A stretch of 64,000 nt of DNA from an uncultured Bacteroidia bacterium (GTDB taxonomy: Bacteria; Bacteroidota; Bacteroidia; Bacteroidales; F082), in assembly GCA_902799345.1 (NCBI GenBank), contig CADBZW010000003.1, positions 62,001 through 126,000 on the forward strand, in the 5' to 3' direction. Positions 26,212-44,706 of this stretch are shown here, piece by piece; position 1 is the first letter of the stretch, and every line of letters starts with the position of its first letter. Made by a program: the position numbers and the translations under genes. The notes below the pieces were generated by a model. That model was not told the DNA's origin, made no database searches, and saw only the letters and a list, made by a program, of their open reading frames with translations.

Positions 26212-26252
26212 CAAAAAAAATGAGGCCGAGAAATCTCAGCCTCATTTTTTTG
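26212..26252. terminator. Bidirectional terminator between convergent genes
   Basis: TGAGGC-c-GAG-aaat-CTC-a-GCCTCA flanked by A8 on the left and T7 on the right, so a U-run follows the hairpin on both strands. Confidence 0.93.
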
Positions 26253-26265
26253 TTCACTATCAGCA

Positions 26266-27462
26266 TCAACTCTTCTTCTTACCCATCATGTAGGTGAGGT
26301 TGAAGCGCAAGGTGTTTTCCAAGGGGTTGCTGCCGTAAACATGTCCCACAGGAATCAAGTAGGAGACATCGAGGCCAAACACATTGTACTTCAATGCGGC
26401 GCCTACGGTAACATATCTACGGCCACCCTTCAAATTAGGCTCGTTGAAGAAGCCCGCACGCACGGCAAAGATGTTGTTGTACCAATACTCGATACCGAGA
26501 CCGACATTGATCTCGCAAATTTCTTCGTAGAACTTTCCAATAGGTTTATAAGGTGCAGTTTCACCTTGATAGGCCTCATTATACGAATAGCCAGGAGCGT
26601 CATAGAAGGATTGGATGATACCCGTCACGACGGCCACGTCGTTATCCATACCATATAGAATCGAGTCTGTTCCAGGGTATCTAATAGGCGGTGTAGGCAC
26701 CAAAAGCTTGGTGAGGTCGAACGTGAAGCCCAAAGTGTTGTACTCGTCCAATTCAAAGTTCATTCCTGCTCCAACACGCAGCGTCGTCGGGATGAAATCG
26801 CGGCGGACAGAACCCGTATTATAGTTGACCTTACTACCAATGTTGGTGATAGACACGCCCCACATGACATCGGCATCCACAGTCTTGAGTTCTACCGGAC
26901 GCTTATAGTACAAACCGATGTCGGCAGCCACAGAAATACCCGCACGAGCGTTGTCGGCCTGGTTTTGGATCAGGTTGGAATAGATGAAACGACCTGCCAC
27001 GGCACCAGAGAGATAGTCGCCCAACATACGAGAATAGGTGGCGTCGATGGCCCATTCATTCGGGTTATACACACCCAACTCCTGGTTGTTTTGGTCTCTA
27101 AAATCCACTTTACCGGCACTGAAATAGCGTAAAGACATGGCCACTGCAGAGCGGTCGTTGATCTTATAGGCGGCGGTGAGATAGGCCAGGTTCATGTCGG
27201 GAACGAGGTTTCTCAACCACGGGCTGTAGCCCAAACCGACCGCCAGTCTATTTTCCAAAAACACATATTTGGCGGGGTTGTAGTGCATGGAATACACATC
27301 GGGCGTCGTGGCAACGCCACAATCTCCCATAGAGCCTCCCCTAGAGTCAGGGTTGATGGAGACGAACGGGACCGCCGTAGTAATCACGTTGGGGGAATTC
27401 TGTGCATACGATGTAGCCGCAACCAACATCAGCGCGGCAAAAAGAAGCTTCTTGATTTTCAT
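26266..27462 (-). CDS. porV: T9SS outer-membrane shuttle protein PorV (LptO)
   Basis: 398 residues from ATG 27462 (signal peptide MKIKKLLFAALMLVAATSYA-Q). FadL-like barrel family; PorV binds T9SS C-terminal domains and hands cargo to PorU (established in Porphyromonas and Flavobacterium). Diagnostic parts: VPFVSINPDSRGGSMGDCGV near the N-terminus, SMHYNPAKY, and the closing strand NPLENTLRFNLTYMMGKKKS. It follows two porU-like genes on the same strand but has its own -7 element, matching the porU-porV neighbourhood seen across the phylum. Confidence 0.95.
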   Translation of the reverse strand: MKIKKLLFAALMLVAATSYAQNSPNVITTAVPFVSINPDSRGGSMGDCGVATTPDVYSMHYNPAKYVFLENRLAVGLGYSPWLRNLVPDMNLAYLTAAYKINDRSAVAMSLRYFSAGKVDFRDQNNQELGVYNPNEWAIDATYSRMLGDYLSGAVAGRFIYSNLIQNQADNARAGISVAADIGLYYKRPVELKTVDADVMWGVSITNIGSKVNYNTGSVRRDFIPTTLRVGAGMNFELDEYNTLGFTFDLTKLLVPTPPIRYPGTDSILYGMDNDVAVVTGIIQSFYDAPGYSYNEAYQGETAPYKPIGKFYEEICEINVGLGIEYWYNNIFAVRAGFFNEPNLKGGRRYVTVGAALKYNVFGLDVSYLIPVGHVYGSNPLENTLRFNLTYMMGKKKS

Positions 27463-27486
27463 ATCCAGTTCTTGTGTTAGAAATTG

Positions 27487-27494
27487 CAAAAATA
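27487..27494 (-). promoter_or_regulatory. -7 element TATTTTTG of porV
   Basis: Consensus match 25 bases before ATG 27462; it places the start site after the alternative TTG-type starts. Confidence 0.75.
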
Positions 27495-27542: not shown

Positions 27543-27571
27543 CGGCGCTTCGACAGGCTCAGCGACCGCCA
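27543..27571. repeat. CTTCGACAGGCTCAGCGACCG repeat, intergenic copy
   Basis: Between porU2 and porV at 27548-27568. It differs at only a few positions from CTTCGACAAGCTCAGGAACC at 62712 inside wecB. This type of motif is a known dispersed repeat in many bacterial genomes (recall). Confidence 0.75.
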
Positions 27572-27576
27572 TCCAT

Positions 27577-30500
27577 TCAGCGCGAGATGACCAGGCGTTG
27601 GCAGACGGTACGGAAGAAGCCATTCCCATCAGTCAGCGTGAGTCGATAGATATATATACCTGATAACAAAGGACTTCCGCCGGAATTACAGCCATTCCAA
27701 ACGATGGGTTCGATGACGCCATTGGTGGAGCTTACTCTCTTCTGCAGCTCTTGCACCTTACGTCCCATGATGTCGAAAATCTCGATGTTCACGTCGAAAT
27801 CACCATCCTCGCCAACATGGGTCAAGGTGATGCGTGTTTCATCGGCGAAGGGATTGGGATAGTTATACACCTGCGAGAGGAACAAGTCGTCGTCGACGAC
27901 AAACCACAGCATGGCTTCGGAGGCGTTGTTTTGCGTGTCCCAGGCCTTGAGTTTGAACTCGTATGTGCCGGGTTCGAGGTCAGCAACGGGGATGGTGATG
28001 CGGCCACGTCGGAAGTCGTTGAGTGCAGGCTCGAAGCGGTCGTTCAAGACGAGGCTGTTGTATGCCTGTAGGTTGCTGCTCATGACGATGTCGCGGCCCA
28101 GGCTGTAGTCGTAGTGATAGATGCCTTGTGCGTCATAGAGGTCAGCATACAGCATGCCGCCTTGGCGGTCAACGTGCTCACCGTTCCCGAAGTCGGGCGT
28201 GTTCCAATAGAAATCGATGTTAGGCCCTTGGTTGTCGGCCACGGCAGCCGGGTCGGTTCCGCCCAAGTTCAGCAGGTCGTATTTGCCCATGGCATCGACG
28301 TTTCTAATAGAGTCGTAGGCATAGAAGCTGAAGCGTGGCCTACCGACTTCCATCTTGATGTCCTTCGGTACCTGGAATGCGGCATTAAATCTACCGTTTT
28401 TCACCTCTACCCTTCCGTGATACAGCACATCCTTATGATAGTAGACATCGGTGGTATTGGTGGAATACTTCACTCTCATCTTGGTCTTCTTGTCGAAGAA
28501 CTTCAGCCACAACTCACCGTTGAAATGGATGTCGGGTTCTCCGCTTGGCGTCAAGACCTCGCCCTCCAAGGACACCATGCTCATGGAATGGAGCTCCACC
28601 GTGCCGTCCTCAGCATCTACTCCGTTGATCCTTGACACGCTGATGTGGTTGGTGGGAAGAGCAAAACGCAGGGCAGGGTCGCCCAAGAACAAAAACGAGA
28701 TGTTCTTGCTTTCCATAGGTGTGACTACCGTGTAGTTTCCCGGATCGATTTTGGCCATTCTCACTATGTCGCCAAAGCGCATCGGGAGGCCGTCTCTTTC
28801 CCTTTGGTAGAGCACACGCACCAATGCCTTGCCTAACTTCTCATTATTATAGCCTTGCGTCGGACGGCAAGCCGTAAGCAGGGCCACCGTGCCGCCTTCG
28901 GGATTGAGGAACAACTGCTCACCTGCCGATACCAGCAATGGATTGTCATATTTGGTGAACTCACAAGTCGCCGTAAAGACAAATGGCACCTTGTCGTAGT
29001 TTCTCAGCGCGTTGATGTCGGAAACGGTGAAGACATTTTCGCCCGTCAGGCCCTTCACGCCGCCATGACCCGTGTAGAGTATCGCCAAGGCACCATCGGC
29101 GAAGGTCCGCATCACATCATCGTGCGCGCCAGGGTTCTCCACACCCGAGCTGGTGTTGACCACAGGATAAGCACCGCAATACACCTTCTCCGTCGTCAAT
29201 CCGGGGCACAGTGTATCCGTCATCCTGAAATACTCCTCGCTGTTCTTGATATAAGACCACTGTTCGTCATCGGCAAACAACAGAAGATTGGTCTTCCAGT
29301 CGCCATGGACGGTTGCGAGGTCGTTATAATGCTTGATTTTACCCAATATTGTCTCGGCTTCTTCCACTGTCGACACAGAGATTCTACCGATGCCCAAATC
29401 CACCATGCCTTCGCTGTTGGTGCCTTCGTTGTCGTCCATCAGACCGAAGTAGTCGTCGGTGCAAAAGCTCAGTTCATATTCAGGTTTGTCCAAGGTCTCA
29501 TAGCAAGGCACGAAGTTATGTCCTACGCCTTTGATGTTTCGGAAATCGAACGAGGCCCTGCCAAACAAGGTAAGATATTTGAGGTTACCCCCACTACGAA
29601 GATACACCATACGCACGAAGTCTCGGATGCCAGTGGGGTCGGGCACGCCCGTCGAGAACTCATTGTAAATCTCGTTGACGTCAACGACGACACTATGCAA
29701 TCCGTCCAACGCGGCATGATAATCGGCCAAAGCCTGAGCCTGCTCCCTGAAGACCGAAGAGGTCAGTATCAGCATGTCAGCCTCAGCAATGGCATGGACA
29801 TTCTGGTTGGCGATACGTTGCCAATGCTCCACTTCGAGGGCTGCCGACGGATGGAATAGCATATAGCGTTTCTCCACGATTTCGTCGATGGCAAACATCA
29901 TGTTGCTGCCTGTCACGACCACTTCCTGTCTTATTGGGTTCATGGGTTCTGTTACATCCCACAATATGTAGTCGGCACTGGAGTTTTGAATCCAGATGGT
30001 ACTCGCTCCATATCCAAACTGGCTCATCATCAACCTGAACGGAAACAAATGGCCCACGCGCTTCAACTGGCGCCAGCCATAAAGTTCCACATAATCAAGG
30101 AACAGCATTGCCGAGGTGTTGTTGCGGATGCTCAAGTTGAACGTCAAGTTATCAGACTCGACCGCCACCTGCGTGTCGATGACAGAGGCTTTAGCATAGT
30201 TGTTTTCGCCCGGTTTCGCAATGGTAACGCCATTGGCGATGTGGGCATCATTAATCCATGCGTCATATTTCATGGCCTCGGTGTGACGGCCATAAACACG
30301 GGATTTCACTTTCACCGGTTCGGTCTTCACTAGATTGGGCATATAAAACTGCAACGACAGCAAGGAATCCTCCTTCGAGACCGTCTCTCCAAACCAGTTC
30401 TGGCCTATGTTATAGGGCGAGAACAGCTCCTCTTCGTGCCATACGCAGTCAAGGTATTCTGAGATCACCGTAGTGGTGCTTTCCACATCGAGCGTGGCCT

Positions 30501-30981
30501 TCTCTCCCACCCTTAAGCCATCCTGTCCGCTGTCGACACAAAGATAATAATAGGTGGTGTCGGTGTAATAGTTACGTTCGCGGATGTAAGTGTTCAAGTT
30601 GTTGGCCGCCTTCCAGCGCGTAGGTTCCTGGCCATAAAACAGCACCACATCTTGACGATCAAAGATTCCGTCCTCAGCACCTTCCACAACGATAGCCATC
30701 TCGGTCAAGTCGTCGGGACGGGCTTTTGAGTTCTTTTCTGGCAAGGCGCCCGAAGGGTTACCAAAAACCCTGATCTGATTGGGGTTCAATGCACCCATGT
30801 TGACGCCCATGGCCTGCAAGGTGGAATAGTCCAACTTGTAGATGCCTTCTTCAGTGACCGACAGGCGATACCAAGTGTGGTCGCTCAACACGGAATGATA
30901 GGTGTTGTCCTGGGCCGTGCCTGCCTTGAACGACAAGACAAGCGCTACAGCGAGGATGATTTTCGATATGCTATTTTTCAT
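27577..30981 (-). CDS. Second PorU-like C25 (gingipain-type) peptidase, T9SS sortase paralogue
   Basis: 1134 residues. Signal peptide (1-23), then directly the WYRLSVTEEGIYKLDYSTLQ block that begins the PorU core; the roughly 140-residue N-terminal extension of its neighbour is missing. The C25 catalytic pair is kept: His in ILYTGHGGVKGL (about residue 638) and Cys in FTATCEFTKYDN (about 670), with FLFLGDPALRF after it. The C-terminus has a FlgD/T9SS-like domain (NYPNPFADETRITL ... EIFDIMGRKVQ ... LSGIYIYRLTL). PorU removes cargo sorting domains and joins cargo to A-LPS. Starts 7 bases after porU; probably active, perhaps with different cargo (inference). Confidence 0.9.
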   Translation of the reverse strand: MKNSISKIILAVALVLSFKAGTAQDNTYHSVLSDHTWYRLSVTEEGIYKLDYSTLQAMGVNMGALNPNQIRVFGNPSGALPEKNSKARPDDLTEMAIVVEGAEDGIFDRQDVVLFYGQEPTRWKAANNLNTYIRERNYYTDTTYYYLCVDSGQDGLRVGEKATLDVESTTTVISEYLDCVWHEEELFSPYNIGQNWFGETVSKEDSLLSLQFYMPNLVKTEPVKVKSRVYGRHTEAMKYDAWINDAHIANGVTIAKPGENNYAKASVIDTQVAVESDNLTFNLSIRNNTSAMLFLDYVELYGWRQLKRVGHLFPFRLMMSQFGYGASTIWIQNSSADYILWDVTEPMNPIRQEVVVTGSNMMFAIDEIVEKRYMLFHPSAALEVEHWQRIANQNVHAIAEADMLILTSSVFREQAQALADYHAALDGLHSVVVDVNEIYNEFSTGVPDPTGIRDFVRMVYLRSGGNLKYLTLFGRASFDFRNIKGVGHNFVPCYETLDKPEYELSFCTDDYFGLMDDNEGTNSEGMVDLGIGRISVSTVEEAETILGKIKHYNDLATVHGDWKTNLLLFADDEQWSYIKNSEEYFRMTDTLCPGLTTEKVYCGAYPVVNTSSGVENPGAHDDVMRTFADGALAILYTGHGGVKGLTGENVFTVSDINALRNYDKVPFVFTATCEFTKYDNPLLVSAGEQLFLNPEGGTVALLTACRPTQGYNNEKLGKALVRVLYQRERDGLPMRFGDIVRMAKIDPGNYTVVTPMESKNISFLFLGDPALRFALPTNHISVSRINGVDAEDGTVELHSMSMVSLEGEVLTPSGEPDIHFNGELWLKFFDKKTKMRVKYSTNTTDVYYHKDVLYHGRVEVKNGRFNAAFQVPKDIKMEVGRPRFSFYAYDSIRNVDAMGKYDLLNLGGTDPAAVADNQGPNIDFYWNTPDFGNGEHVDRQGGMLYADLYDAQGIYHYDYSLGRDIVMSSNLQAYNSLVLNDRFEPALNDFRRGRITIPVADLEPGTYEFKLKAWDTQNNASEAMLWFVVDDDLFLSQVYNYPNPFADETRITLTHVGEDGDFDVNIEIFDIMGRKVQELQKRVSSTNGVIEPIVWNGCNSGGSPLLSGIYIYRLTLTDGNGFFRTVCQRLVISR

Positions 30982-30988
30982 ACTTCCT

Positions 30989-33900
30989 TCATTTACTTAA
31001 TACCAATTTCGACACCATCGTGGCCGTCTCACCTTGGTCGTTGGTGGCCACCACACGATACACATAGACACCATTGCGTAAGACTGAGCCTTGGGCGCTA
31101 CGACCATCCCATCTGATGGGGTCGACGCGCGTTGAAGAGCCTGAGACCACTTGTGAAAGCGTGGTCACCCAGCGTCCCATGATATCGAAGATGTAGATGT
31201 CGACTTTCATATTGTTGCCGCCCTGGTTGTGATCGAAGACGAAATGCGTCTCGTCGGTCACAGGGTTGGGGGCGTTAAACAAGTTCTCAATGAGTATGCC
31301 CGAGTTGTTGACCACGGTGAAGTCAATCGTCGCTGTACCCGAGTTATTGTAGATGTCCCATACTTTCAGCGTCAAGGTATAGTCGCCGTCAGGAAGGTCC
31401 TGCATCCTATAGGTGATGACGCCCTTGCCGGGTTCGTCGATTTGTGAGACGAAATACGAGTTAAGGCAATACGAGTTTCGTGTCGGCCCTGTCAAGGTGG
31501 CGATGATGTCGTGACCGATGCCAGCCCCGGTCGTGTTGATGCCACTTTCGTCTTCCACGTAAGCCAGCAGCAACGGGTTTTGTCCCGTCAGACCTCCGTT
31601 CACAAACAAGGTGTCATCGATAAAAAGTCGTACTTCGGGTGGTTCATGGTCTTCGAAGGCTTCATCATAAAAGCCTCCGATGATGAAGCTGTCGCAGTTG
31701 CCGTTGGCATCGATATCGTAATCCGTTGCGTAATAGTTGATTAATCCTCTTCCAAAACGATAGGAAATGTCGCGCGGCACGATGAAGTTCATCGTAAACC
31801 TGCCGTCCTTGACATCGGTCTTACCATTGAAAATCACGCTGTTGCGTAACTTAAAGTTAATAACACCAGTTGCTGTACCACGGGTAGAGAGGTCGGCTTC
31901 CTTGTCGTAAACAATCACGCTCACAACACCGTTGAAATTCGTCGCCACATTGCCAGCGAAGTCCTTGACCACGCCCTCGATGGAGACGGGCTGCAAAGCG
32001 CTGATGGTGTCAAGGTAGACGGGGTTGACCTGCCAAGTCGAGTCGTTGATTTGGATGGAATCCATGACATAACCAGGGTATTGTCCGTTGATGCTCAGCG
32101 TCTCCACTTTCCATTTCGGGTAGTTCAGACGCAGGGCTGGGTCGCCGAAGAAGACATAGCGTTTCTCCACCACGCTGCCATTGGTCTTGGCCATGCGGTA
32201 GACGTCGCCCAAACGATAGTGCTCGCCGCCATAGATGCGGAACAGGTTTTTGTAGACACCCTTGTTGAATTCCAGGTTATGGTTGCCATGCGTCACCCTC
32301 GAAGTGGTGAACATGGCGATCATGCCACCGTATTGGTTGAGGAAAGCATACTCGCCCAAGGAGGTACGCAAGTGGTCGTCGAAGCGGCTGAACTCACAGG
32401 TACCTGTAATCATCAGCGGATACATCGGGGCGTTACGCCACGAGTCGACGTCTTTCCTTTGCAGGATTTTCTCCTCCGCCAGCTGCACCTCGCCGCCATG
32501 ACCCGTATAGTTGAGCACCAGCGTGCCTTTCTCCATGCGGCTGTTGATGGCGGCATTCACTTCGGGGCAGACCTCGCCACCAGGTGCACTGACTTGCTCG
32601 TAGGCATCCAGATAAATCTTGTCGACCACCACGCCTTCGCCGCCCACGCTAGGCAGCATGGCAGCCATTTCCTCTGCTGAATTCACGAAGCCCGCTTCGT
32701 CGTCGGTGAAGAAAGTCACCGCGTTGCGCCAAGGCTGCATCGTGGTTTCGTCTTTCACGATGTAACGTTCGATCTTATCCACCATCTGTGTGGCTTGTTC
32801 CAAGGTCTGCACTGGGAATCGACCGATGCCAATGTCAGCCAATGAACTACCGATGGAGCCTTCTGCCTCGTCCATGAAGCCAAAATAATCGTCGGTGACA
32901 AAAGTCTCCGTCATGCAAAGCGAACTCACAGACTCGTACGTAGGCACAAAGTCAACCACGGCGGTGCGGTTCTTGTAATCGTATGAGCAGTCGCCGAGCA
33001 GCAGGAGGTACTTGATTTTGCGGCCGGGATTGCTGTCGAGATAAAGCATACGGCAGAAGTCACGGATGGCGGAAATGTCTTTGGCGCCACAGGAAAACTC
33101 GTTATAAATCATTTCCGGCGTGGTGATAAATACGTCCAAGTCGGGGTCGAGGCTGTTGTGAATGGCTTTCAAACGCTCGGCCTGGGTCATGAATCCGTCG
33201 TAGGTCACAATGACAAAGTCGACATCGCGGATGCCATGCAGGTTCTGGTTATCGACCTGACCAAACATCTTAGCCGTGCAATAAGAGCTGCCATTGAAGG
33301 CAACAAATTCGTTGTCAACATCTCCATTCACCTTAAAACTGAATGTGTTACCACTCAGCTGTCCTTTCATGACAGAAGGAGCGACAGGGTCAGTGACGTT
33401 CCACACTTGCACCTGCTGCGAGGCGTTGGACAATTGGTATTGGTACACCTTGTTATTAATAGAGGCTTCAGGATTGCGGAACATCATCTGGCTGCCCGTG
33501 AACTTGAGGTTGCGCCAAGCGTTGACCGTGATATAATCCACATAGCCTTCGGATGTGCCTGCGCCATAGGCATTGTGTTTGAGCGTGACACGCAACGTCT
33601 CCGACGTTGGATTTGCCGACACCCAGCCGCCCACGTCGTAGCCATAGTAATAATCCGAGGTATAGACCGGAATGCTATAAGTCGCTTTCTTGACATTGTC
33701 GAGCAAGACGTCGAAGGAAGCATTTTGTATGTTTCTGCCAGCCAAAGCCGTGTTAACCTTGCAGGGTTTCGTCGTCACCACATTGGGGAAATTGAAATCA
33801 AAATTCTTCGACGAGGTCGAGTCCATCTTGTCGCCATAATAGGTACGTCCCACGTGGAACAAGCTGAATTCATCCAACTCATGCACCTGATGGTCAATGA

Positions 33901-34822
33901 ATTGTGAAACTGTTTCATTGGCAGTCAGTGACTGGTTGTTGGTCTCGCTGATACGTTTGCCTTGTCCCTTCCCAGTGACCACAAAAGCGTAGGCATAATC
34001 ATCGTATGGGTTCTGGCCATGGACATATGCTGTCTTAGAGGCATCATACTTCCAACACACTGGGCCTCGACCATAGAACAGGATATAGTCACCATTGTCG
34101 AACTTGCCGTCCGACTCGCCATAGACATAGATAGGAAGCTCCACCAAGTCGTCATGGCGTGCCTCACTATTCATCTCGGGCAGCACTCCTCCACCGTTGT
34201 GATAGATGCGAATTTGACGAGGGTCGACATGGGCGACATCGACACCCAAATTCGACAAATCGGCATAGGTCAACTTGTAAATGCCCGTTTCGGGAAGACC
34301 GACTTTGTACCAATCTCCCGAGGCCATCGCAGAGCGGTCCGCAAACGATGGATTAGATTTTTGTGCCTCAAAATCAGCGGCTAACGTCACGGAAAGTGTG
34401 GCTGAAACCAATTTCTCAACCTTACCCCCTTGCTGACGGAAAGGCACGATGCGCACACTTAAAAACGACTCGTCGCGTGAGCGAATCGGAATAGCGGTCA
34501 CCTCAAAATCCTGTGCAACAGAAAACGCCTTCGCCAATTGCATTTCCTCAGGTGCCAGCGGAGCCGTCACCATCTTGTCCAACACCACTTTAGCGTCGAC
34601 ATGGTGGTCAAAGATGGGGAAAGACTGGTAGAACACAGGCATAGCTCCCACATATTCCGCCGACTGCAAAGAAATATAAAACGAGGTGTCATAGTCGTTT
34701 CTTTCTTCCATCAGGCCATTCCATTGCAGGCGAATGGGATACGAGCTGGTAATCTGAGCCATCGAGATGCAGGCCATTCCCAGTACAAAAACGACTAATA
34801 ACAAGAATTTATTTATGCGCAT
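30989..34822 (-). CDS. porU: T9SS sortase PorU (C25 peptidase)
   Basis: 1277 residues, within the range of PorU proteins. Signal peptide MRINKFLLLVVFVLGMACIS; N-terminal region about 25-165; core start GDWYKVGLPETGIYKLTYAD; C25 domain with His in LNYTGHGGEVQL (about residue 773) and Cys in ITGTCEFSRFDD (about 807); FFGDPALRL; and a C-terminal domain (NAPNPVTDETHFVF ... IYIFDIMGRWVTTL ... LRNGVYVYRVV). It cleaves T9SS signals at the surface in complex with PorV. First gene of porU-porU2-porV and divergent from gldJ, a conserved arrangement. Its -7 element is imperfect (TATTTTCG, 34897-34904). Confidence 0.95.
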   Translation of the reverse strand: MRINKFLLLVVFVLGMACISMAQITSSYPIRLQWNGLMEERNDYDTSFYISLQSAEYVGAMPVFYQSFPIFDHHVDAKVVLDKMVTAPLAPEEMQLAKAFSVAQDFEVTAIPIRSRDESFLSVRIVPFRQQGGKVEKLVSATLSVTLAADFEAQKSNPSFADRSAMASGDWYKVGLPETGIYKLTYADLSNLGVDVAHVDPRQIRIYHNGGGVLPEMNSEARHDDLVELPIYVYGESDGKFDNGDYILFYGRGPVCWKYDASKTAYVHGQNPYDDYAYAFVVTGKGQGKRISETNNQSLTANETVSQFIDHQVHELDEFSLFHVGRTYYGDKMDSTSSKNFDFNFPNVVTTKPCKVNTALAGRNIQNASFDVLLDNVKKATYSIPVYTSDYYYGYDVGGWVSANPTSETLRVTLKHNAYGAGTSEGYVDYITVNAWRNLKFTGSQMMFRNPEASINNKVYQYQLSNASQQVQVWNVTDPVAPSVMKGQLSGNTFSFKVNGDVDNEFVAFNGSSYCTAKMFGQVDNQNLHGIRDVDFVIVTYDGFMTQAERLKAIHNSLDPDLDVFITTPEMIYNEFSCGAKDISAIRDFCRMLYLDSNPGRKIKYLLLLGDCSYDYKNRTAVVDFVPTYESVSSLCMTETFVTDDYFGFMDEAEGSIGSSLADIGIGRFPVQTLEQATQMVDKIERYIVKDETTMQPWRNAVTFFTDDEAGFVNSAEEMAAMLPSVGGEGVVVDKIYLDAYEQVSAPGGEVCPEVNAAINSRMEKGTLVLNYTGHGGEVQLAEEKILQRKDVDSWRNAPMYPLMITGTCEFSRFDDHLRTSLGEYAFLNQYGGMIAMFTTSRVTHGNHNLEFNKGVYKNLFRIYGGEHYRLGDVYRMAKTNGSVVEKRYVFFGDPALRLNYPKWKVETLSINGQYPGYVMDSIQINDSTWQVNPVYLDTISALQPVSIEGVVKDFAGNVATNFNGVVSVIVYDKEADLSTRGTATGVINFKLRNSVIFNGKTDVKDGRFTMNFIVPRDISYRFGRGLINYYATDYDIDANGNCDSFIIGGFYDEAFEDHEPPEVRLFIDDTLFVNGGLTGQNPLLLAYVEDESGINTTGAGIGHDIIATLTGPTRNSYCLNSYFVSQIDEPGKGVITYRMQDLPDGDYTLTLKVWDIYNNSGTATIDFTVVNNSGILIENLFNAPNPVTDETHFVFDHNQGGNNMKVDIYIFDIMGRWVTTLSQVVSGSSTRVDPIRWDGRSAQGSVLRNGVYVYRVVATNDQGETATMVSKLVLSK

Positions 34823-35073: not shown

Positions 35074-36564
35074 ATGTATAGAAAACAAGGATTTAAGACA
35101 TTAGCCATCATCGTCTTGGCAGGATTGCTTACCGTTTCGTGCTCCCAAAAGTCCTCTCGTACAACGGGTTGGGCCTACAATGACGCCAACAACGGAGGCT
35201 TTGAAGTCACAGAAATCAACGACCAACAGATTGGTCCCGGTTTGATTGCCATCGAAGGCGGCACCTTCGTCATGGGTGCTACCAACGACAACATCACCTA
35301 TTCTTGGGACAATGCACCTCGTAAGGTGACCGTGCCTACTTTCTTGATTGACCGCACGGAGGTCAGCAACGTGGACTACCGCGAGTACATTTACTGGCTG
35401 AATCGCGTTTATGGCCAGAACTATCCTCAGGTGGTGCGCAATGCCGCTCCCGACACCTTGGTTTGGCGTGACCGTTTGTCCTACAACGAGCCCATGGTGG
35501 AGATTTACTTCCGTCATCCTTCATACAATGACTATCCGGTGGTTGGCGTGACATGGGTGCAAGCCCAAGACTATTGCGCTTGGCGTACCGACCGTGTCAA
35601 TGAGTTGATGCTTATCGAAGCCGGCATCCTTGATTGGGATCCTTCACAGCAGGACGAAGAGAACTTCAACACCGACGCTTATCTGGCTGGTCAGTACACT
35701 GGCAAGGTGAAGAATGGCAAGAAAGACCTCTCGAAAGGTGGCGATGGCATGCGTAACGTCAGAATGGACGATGGCATCCTCCTTCCCTCCTATCGTCTTC
35801 CCACGGAAGCTGAATGGGAATATGCCGCTGTTGGCCTGGTGGGTAACACCAGCAACGAACTCGTCAGCGAGCGTAAGGTGTATCCTTGGAGCGGTGAAGG
35901 CTTGCGTACCGACAGCAAGAGATACATGGGTAGCTTCATGGGCAACTTCAAGAAAGGTCCTGGTGACTACATGGGTGTCGCCGGTCACTTGAACGATGGT
36001 GCCGCTCTGCCCGCCCCCGTTGGTTCTTACTGGCCCAACGACTACGGCCTGTATAACATGGCTGGTAACGTTGCCGAATGGTGCCAAGATGTCTATCGTC
36101 CCTTGTCACATGAAGATGTTGCCGACTACAGCCCCTTCCGTGGTAACGTGTTTACCCGCAAGGCCGTCGACGACGAAGGCTTCCTGTTGCAGAAAGACTC
36201 CCTCGGTCGTATCCGCAGAGAACTCATCCCTCAAGAAGAAGCTTCCAAGCGTCAGAACTACCGCACTGCCTTTAACTCCAACTATGGCGACGGTGACTAC
36301 ATGTCAGCCATCCGTAACCGCTGGAACGACCCGCAAGAAGACCAAAGCACCTTCACAAGAGAGATGTACGACTATGCCACCAACGACACCCCTGGTACCA
36401 CTCTCATCAACGACGAATCGAGAGTGTACAAAGGCGGCTCATGGGCAGACCTTCCTTACTACCTGAGCCCTGGCACACGCCGTTACCTCAACCAGAACCA
36501 GTCCGCCTCCACAATCGGCTTCCGCTGCGCGATGAACAAGGTTGGAAGCTCCTTTGCAAAGTAA
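35074..36564 (+). CDS. gldJ: Gliding/T9SS lipoprotein GldJ
   Basis: 496 residues. Lipobox LTVSC gives lipidated Cys23. The rest is a formylglycine-generating-enzyme (FGE-sulfatase) fold: IEGGTFVMGATNDN, RTEVSNVDYREYIYWL, YRLPTEAEWEYAA, GLYNMAGNVAEWCQD and VYKGGSWADLPYYL with the closing GFRCAMN. GldJ, like GldK/PorK, is a structural outer-membrane lipoprotein needed for T9SS and for stability of GldK (established in Flavobacterium). PorK is the alternative, but the position next to porU and murF favours GldJ. Probably no FGE catalysis. Followed by a hairpin and murF. Confidence 0.88.
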   Translation: MYRKQGFKTLAIIVLAGLLTVSCSQKSSRTTGWAYNDANNGGFEVTEINDQQIGPGLIAIEGGTFVMGATNDNITYSWDNAPRKVTVPTFLIDRTEVSNVDYREYIYWLNRVYGQNYPQVVRNAAPDTLVWRDRLSYNEPMVEIYFRHPSYNDYPVVGVTWVQAQDYCAWRTDRVNELMLIEAGILDWDPSQQDEENFNTDAYLAGQYTGKVKNGKKDLSKGGDGMRNVRMDDGILLPSYRLPTEAEWEYAAVGLVGNTSNELVSERKVYPWSGEGLRTDSKRYMGSFMGNFKKGPGDYMGVAGHLNDGAALPAPVGSYWPNDYGLYNMAGNVAEWCQDVYRPLSHEDVADYSPFRGNVFTRKAVDDEGFLLQKDSLGRIRRELIPQEEASKRQNYRTAFNSNYGDGDYMSAIRNRWNDPQEDQSTFTREMYDYATNDTPGTTLINDESRVYKGGSWADLPYYLSPGTRRYLNQNQSASTIGFRCAMNKVGSSFAK

Positions 36565-44661: not shown

Positions 44662-44698
44662 GGTGCCCTAAAGTTTGTAGGTATTACACTGAATTTTG

Positions 44699-44706
44699 TA
44701 TTTTTG
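44699..44706 (+). promoter_or_regulatory. -7 element TATTTTTG of the flippase gene
   Basis: It overlaps a TTG (44704-44706) that would otherwise be read as a start codon, so translation must begin downstream, at GTG 44734. Confidence 0.7.

Follow-up and report, generated by a model that had tools for sequence, protein, structure and literature searches.

The tandem porU locus

The DNA stretch analysed here, hereafter the window, comprises 64,000 nucleotides (nt) of contig CADBZW010000003.1 from an uncultured Bacteroidia bacterium of the order Bacteroidales. Its minus strand carries two adjacent genes for PorU, which to our knowledge has been described as responsible for cutting and anchoring cargo of the type IX secretion system (T9SS), with one such enzyme per organism. 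The upstream gene, porU-A (30989..34822), encodes a long-form PorU of 1277 residues; it is followed, after 7 nt, by porU-B (27577..30981), which encodes a short PorU of 1134 residues, and then by porV. An initial annotation of this DNA had noted two PorU-like C25 peptidase genes in this same arrangement, and both the open reading frames (ORFs) and the family profiles bear it out. We conclude that both genes encode PorU and, from sequence comparison, that they represent two lineages that diverged long ago. PorU-B may act as a second sortase beside PorU-A.

Family identity of PorU-A and PorU-B

Against the PorU family model of NCBIfam (NF033707, curated cut-off 420 bits), PorU-A scores 1188.2 bits over model positions 2–1094 of 1095 and PorU-B 996.1 bits over positions 1–1094; the best of the remaining hits in the same genome reaches 46.3 bits. 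Both matches are full-length, at about 1100 residues, so chance need not be considered. The Cys-His dyad of peptidase family C25 is present in both proteins, as had been proposed. In PorU-A, with its C25 domain at residues 536–899, the dyad comprises His775 (codon 32498..32500, in a TGHGG block) and Cys809 (32396..32398, in a TGTCEF block); in PorU-B, where the C25 catalytic domain spans residues 403–772 (28666..29775), it comprises His639 (29065..29067, TGHGG) and Cys673 (28963..28965, TATCEF). A C-terminal T9SS domain is matched in each (TIGR04183, cut-off 23; 25.3 bits in PorU-A, from about residue 1185, and 29.3 bits in PorU-B). Of the FlgD/T9SS-like domain assigned earlier, the T9SS part is thus borne out; the FlgD_ig profile falls below its cut-off in both proteins.

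PorU is built from an N-terminal cluster, the C25 domain, two immunoglobulin (Ig)-like domains and a C-terminal domain (CTD), and this architecture is seen in the AlphaFold models of PorU-A and PorU-B (predicted local distance difference test, pLDDT, 91.5 and 90.7). For both models the top Foldseek match in the PDB is Porphyromonas gingivalis PorU (6ZA2), over nearly the whole length (E = 8e-84 for PorU-A and 5e-75 for PorU-B); fold, length, Cys-His dyad and C-terminal T9SS domain are all shared with that enzyme. By family model and predicted fold, both proteins are PorU. PorZ, another member of the attachment complex, is encoded elsewhere in the genome (586.5 bits, cut-off 260).

Two other identities were tried and rejected. 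The first, raised by the initial annotation, is that the shorter gene belongs with the secreted gingipain-like proteases. The genome has 12 Peptidase_C25 hits in all. Against the PorU model, PorU-B scores 996 bits, and the hits of the genome outside the pair score no more than 46. In sequence, PorU-B matches PorU at 7.7e-106 and gingipain at 2.8e-5, and it differs from the gingipains RgpB and Kgp (peptidase C25) in having PorU-type flanking domains; it also sits among PorU rows in our trees, which were made of PorU rows only. The second is PorU2 (NF052324), a PorU-related family that NCBI names together with PorV2 (NF052325). Both proteins match it only in part, over the N-terminal two thirds, and score far under its cut-off of 450 bits (165.5 for PorU-A, 174.4 for PorU-B), so that neither is PorU2. 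The NCBI model for PorU itself names the two genes alike, and the division between them described below is thereby hidden.

The additional length of PorU-A lies in an N-terminal extension of about residues 5–144 (34391..34810), a region of about 140 residues that P. gingivalis PorU lacks. It matches the N-terminal domain of long-form PorU (NF052318, cut-off 40) in length and position, with a sub-threshold score of 35.2 bits; PorU-B gives no match to this model at an E-value of 0.001. The initial annotation was correct in finding the extension absent from the second gene, but this absence does not mark a second sortase. Among 50 A+B pairs, 39 of the A proteins and 36 of the B proteins are longer than 1200 residues, and the remaining copies (11 A and 14 B) include contig-cut or broken genes (A of L138 and L230; B of L081 and L089). 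The extension is therefore rejected as an A/B mark, and its absence from PorU-B of the window is one of several losses.

Two lineages of PorU

Trees were built from 79 loci of named relatives and from stretches of genomes of the same order and phylum, on which porU, porV and gldJ were mapped. Loci L001–L038, too short for gene order, were omitted from later maps and trees, and five identical rows were removed from the 284-row set. With FastTree, 217 rows gave a B clade of 50 rows (SH-like support 98) and an A clade of 59 rows (96). With 284 rows, the B clade comprised 53 rows (99), A and its basal allies 75 rows (support 73 at the base), and A and B together were supported at 99. The two genes of the window fall one in each lineage. 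In an IQ-TREE analysis of 57 rows under the C20 model, B formed a single clade (Shimodaira-Hasegawa approximate likelihood ratio test, SH-aLRT, 99.7). Two clades with both catalytic pairs conserved, the pattern proposed earlier as support for specialised sortases, is thus what we find.

That the second gene might be a recent tandem copy with degraded sites in relatives had also been raised. This is rejected, since A and B are separate lineages in the FastTree analyses and a grouping of A with B within the window's own family was rejected by the approximately unbiased test (p-AU 0.0016, 57 rows). The same test rejected a clade of all 20 tandem A rows without the A-clade single genes (p-AU 0.0005), because single-gene A rows nest among the tandem ones. 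We conclude that, to judge from these trees, the pair diverged long ago and porU-B is an ancient paralogue.

Some of the trees weigh against so simple a division. In an 81-row IQ-TREE analysis (LG+G4), B was not a single clade, and the long-branched rows L126, L188, L137_B and L120_B were placed among B. After this tree had been seen, 22 of the 81 rows (14 loci) were removed, and in the resulting 59-row C20 tree the long-branched single PorU rows L126 and L188 again fell among B; the 57-row set is this set without them. Because the 57-row set had been thinned in this way, a 77-row C20 analysis was made from the 81 rows minus those four long-branched rows. Here the smallest group holding B contained the 24 B rows and the downstream copies of L145 and L146, and no upstream copy. 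In the best tree the 24 B rows did not form a clade by themselves, and a constraint making them one was not rejected (p-AU 0.24). Upstream and downstream copies separate robustly; owing to the long-branched rows, both the root of the duplication and its age are unsure.

Four loci stand apart. At L120 and L137 (genomes G003 and G111) an A-clade gene is followed by a very diverged, long-branched PorU, possibly a fast-evolving B. At L145 and L146 (G045 and G088) the downstream copy lies at the base of A in FastTree and joins B in the 77-row IQ-TREE analysis; these are probably further A+B loci.

Distribution and dependence of B on A

Of 148 genomes from the window's order, 131 encode a PorU above the family cut-off, and 122 of the 131 were mapped. 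Seventeen carry A+B, spread over 15 family-level groups; one more, G016, has A together with a B cut by the contig end; ten carry A only, 80 a single PorU outside A and B, and 14 are in other multi-copy states. PorU pieces shorter than 700 residues, including contig-end fragments such as that of G016, were left out, so that the numbers given for single-gene genomes are maxima. Across the phylum, 198 genomes were sampled, with at most three candidates scored in each; 135 were over the cut-off, and the genome of the window was the only one with two genes. All 134 genomes over the cut-off outside the window's order have one (in G195 in two pieces), which agrees with the earlier statement that most T9SS organisms have a single PorU, as described for P. 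gingivalis, where one PorU serves as the sole sortase and C-terminal signal peptidase. Named loci contribute a further 35 A+B tandems and a triple of the form A-M-B; two of these share their contigs with mapped genomes. A and B are both present at L064, from a metagenome-assembled member of the Lentimicrobiaceae. PorU-B is 63–99% identical to its 120 best-listed relatives in the database.

Among the matches listed from searches of open-access full texts, a scope that excludes subscription papers and preprints, none describes two lineages of PorU or tandem porU genes. A phylogenetic survey of T9SS components from 2020 includes a PorU tree of 109 taxa, and words beginning with duplicat- or paralog- do not occur in its text (PMC7323717).

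The catalytic residues of B are strongly conserved. Every A row (75 of 75) and all 156 other PorU rows keep the dyad; of the 52 readable B rows, all retain His and 51 retain Cys, and both residues are kept in all 121 of a set made up of PorU-B of the window and its 120 listed relatives. Sequence entropy around the Cys is 0.80 bits in B, 0.68 in A and 1.41 in other PorU. Because its Cys block is nearly as constrained as that of A, we conclude that porU-B is, on this evidence of conservation, under selection for catalysis. A degraded second copy is rejected for the tandem B rows. The single catalytic substitution among readable B rows is in L220 (6673-9660, genome G082), an orphan B-clade PorU of 995 residues with Ser in place of the catalytic Cys. 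There is no porV beside it and no A-clade copy in G082, whose porV-linked PorU lies outside A and B; contamination of the assembly is possible.

B rows number 53. Fifty of them lie in tandem with A, one occupies the middle of the triple, one has its A on another contig of the same genome, and one is the orphan. Conversely, whole-genome searches found one PorU over the cut-off in each of the ten A-only genomes of the order, and likewise in the genomes of L046, L067 and L077. As A is kept without B, and B, apart from the decayed orphan, only with A, A would be the core enzyme and B the accessory one. Here too there is a point on the other side: five of the A-only genomes (G023, G035, G085, G097 and G105) lie at the base of A, where support is weak (73), and may have branched off before the duplication instead of losing B after it. 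Losses that appear nested inside A in the trees are more secure, namely those of L156 (from the window's genus), L046/L067 and L077.

PorU has also been duplicated elsewhere. Other independent duplications occur at L150, L155, L125/L131 (the second copy of both being much diverged) and L113 (Aureispira, outside the order), and split PorU pairs outside A and B occur in G002, G031, G062, G130 and G137. A porU of Parabacteroides distasonis (NZ_OY725768.1, 192491-195835) encodes a protein 28.8% identical to PorU-B; the record is listed as a 388 kb plasmid and may be a chromosomal piece.

Gene order and the relationship between A and B

In the window, the gap between porU-A and porU-B (30982..30988) reads AGGAAGT on the coding strand, and this purine-rich sequence is likely the ribosome-binding site of porU-B. 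The porV gene (26266..27462) encodes 398 residues from an ATG at 27462, or 407 from an upstream TTG (ORF 26266-27489). It matches NF033710 at 435.9 bits (cut-off 250), and of the three proteins of this genome that pass the PorV/PorQ-family cut-off (375, 141 and 133 bits) it ranks first. On its 3' side is a strong terminator-like hairpin of 17 pairs followed by a T run (26214..26251, minus strand), which likely ends the transcript. Upstream of porU-A lies a divergent gene for a GldJ-like lipoprotein (35074..36564, plus strand; TIGR03524, 447.2 bits, just under the cut-off of 458.2). Given this divergent gene and the hairpin, porU-A, porU-B and porV look like one transcription unit.

This arrangement recurs widely. 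Among 60 tandem porU loci, after removal of duplicates, A lies upstream and B downstream in 50, and the reverse order was found in none. The other ten comprise L120 and L137, L145 and L146, L075 (an outside gene with an A-clade gene) and five wholly outside A and B. Over the 50 loci, the median A-B gap is 23.5 nt; the genes overlap by 4 nt at six loci (L039, L040, L041, L044 and L115, which are relatives of the window, and L143) and by 1 nt at L051, and a larger overlap at L081 is an artefact of a cut gene. The A and B distance matrices agree (Mantel r 0.89; 0 of 2000 permutations as high). A gldJ gene is present at 44 of the 50 loci, and porV lies within 1.5 kb downstream at 38. At six the available stretch ends within 2.7 kb downstream; at a further six (L050, L094, L101, L111, L149 and L230) porV was not found despite room for it there, so the link between B and porV does not hold in all lineages. 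The porV neighbour is also found in the single-PorU relatives mapped here.

The presence of porV bears on whether B could be a surface protease with another job, such as removal of N-terminal propeptides from cargo, that has lost attachment. P. gingivalis PorU takes part in removal of gingipain prodomains (PMC10202324), and the window's genome encodes the further C25 proteins counted above. Set against this, B retains the whole PorU architecture, including the CTD, and porV is its near neighbour at most tandem loci; we consider such a role improbable.

The tight spacing and fixed order, together with the failure of B to persist without A, are also what would be expected if A and B formed a heteromer. 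Each PorU would then keep its partner latent, up to the point at which the partner enters the attachment complex, or B would support A catalytically or structurally. In P. gingivalis, dimerisation inhibits PorU: the protease domain of one subunit is bound by a hairpin that the second subunit contributes (PMC10202324), and 6ZA2 is titled as dimeric latent PorU. It is because of this regulation by dimerisation that the heteromer is the main rival to a second sortase. In 48 pairs the identity between A and B of the same locus exceeds that between loci in all five domains, most of all in the CTD (+0.026; 0 of 2000 permutations). This excess fits a shared partner, but it is small and could also stem from genome composition or gene conversion. 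Both A and B have a strand pair in the first Ig-like domain at the site where, as we take it, the dimerisation hairpin is located. The hairpin stretch is no more conserved than the rest of its domain (1.61 compared with 1.52 bits in A, 1.96 compared with 1.84 in B), a result that gives the heteromer no backing and is also no argument against a heterodimer. A purely structural partner would not need a dyad, yet B keeps its own. Taken together, these observations leave the heteromer a serious competitor that we nevertheless regard as unlikely.

Possible role of PorU-B

The explanation that we favour, and that we consider about as likely to be right as wrong, is that PorU-B is an ancient PorU paralogue with its own Cys-His dyad that cleaves CTDs as a second sortase, in an accessory role next to the core enzyme PorU-A. 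Both proteins would dock on the same PorV through their C-terminal domains; PorU-A would carry out general cleavage and attachment as in single-PorU species, and PorU-B would serve a subset of cargo, cleavage sites or acceptors. Gram-positive bacteria pair a housekeeping sortase with special-purpose ones, as in pilus loci. The likeness, two sortases serving one surface with a general and a specialised role, is a working analogy between unrelated protein families.

Some observations count against a specialised PorU-B. Across the 50 pairs, just 3 of 1045 alignment columns contrast A with B (majority of at least 60% on each side). The strongest of these is A844/B708, which is Thr in 50 of 50 A and Ala in 73% of B, and which aligns with Gln282 of gingipain R, presumably a residue of the S1 pocket. 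PorU-B of the window itself has Thr at this position, however, so the hint does not apply to the window. Elsewhere, the B proteins of the window's family have a longer loop before the GDPAL motif (residues 751–760), which is poorly predicted (pLDDT 59).

Cargo load also has to be considered. In first-look counts, with up to 98 candidates scored per genome, CTD candidates number 88–253 in the 17 A+B genomes, 28–333 in A-only genomes and 40–466 in 19 other single-PorU genomes. All 17 A+B genomes are thus cargo-rich, whereas 7 of the 19 other-clade single-PorU genomes have fewer than 88 candidates, and a dosage effect is therefore possible. This, the independent PorU duplications noted above, and a mean A-B identity in the catalytic domain (0.470) nearly as high as that between B proteins (0.484) are consistent with B duplicating the function of A, as a backup or for dosage. 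But A and B have remained separate over 15 family-level groups without homogenising, and B has evolved about 1.25 times faster (its paths are longer in 98% of locus pairs; mean factor 1.25). Genomes with one PorU, moreover, can encode a much larger cargo, reaching 466 candidates outside A and B and 333 with A only; cargo load as the whole reason for B is not supported, and we think a backup copy rather improbable.

Returning to an accessory sortase, a fuller form of this proposal is that a large Bacteroidales clade has had, since the ancient duplication, a two-sortase T9SS attachment complex, with A and B on one PorV and B having its own cargo, cleavage site or acceptor, so as to give two chemically distinct classes of surface protein. 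We put this forward tentatively, as well short of an even chance. The initial annotation's suggestion of a second active sortase, taken as a whole, is partly supported; the support does not extend to another cargo class or another attachment chemistry. A second catalytically conserved PorU of distinct lineage, in fixed gene order and in 15 family-level groups, suggests that a large section of the Bacteroidales, most of it uncultured, gained a more elaborate attachment step long ago. The A/B pair makes it testable how the T9SS chooses between release and anchoring of cargo, and what the cargo is anchored to.

Other features of the window and genome

Between porU-B and porV, within the likely operon, is a 20-mer, GCTGAGCCTGTCGAAGCGCC (27544-27563, minus strand). 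It is a small dispersed repeat found at four places in the genome, two exact and two with one mismatch. The pattern TTTG-N18-22-TANNTTTG, which we take to be the Bacteroidetes-type promoter consensus, has five matches in the window (for example 44674-44706, plus strand), compared with 0.69 expected by chance; a scan of the window gave no match upstream of porU-A.

On the same contig, about 28 kb from the left edge of the window and outside it, gingipain-like C25 frames are clustered (G000:C3:25645-33483), with four Peptidase_C25 hits. Also outside the window, another PorV/PorQ-family protein (140.7 bits) is encoded at G000:C14:33663-35132. Its gene adjoins a frame of 1513 residues with a weak match to a PorZ-type CTD (26.7 bits), and the two are possibly a second shuttle-and-cargo pair.

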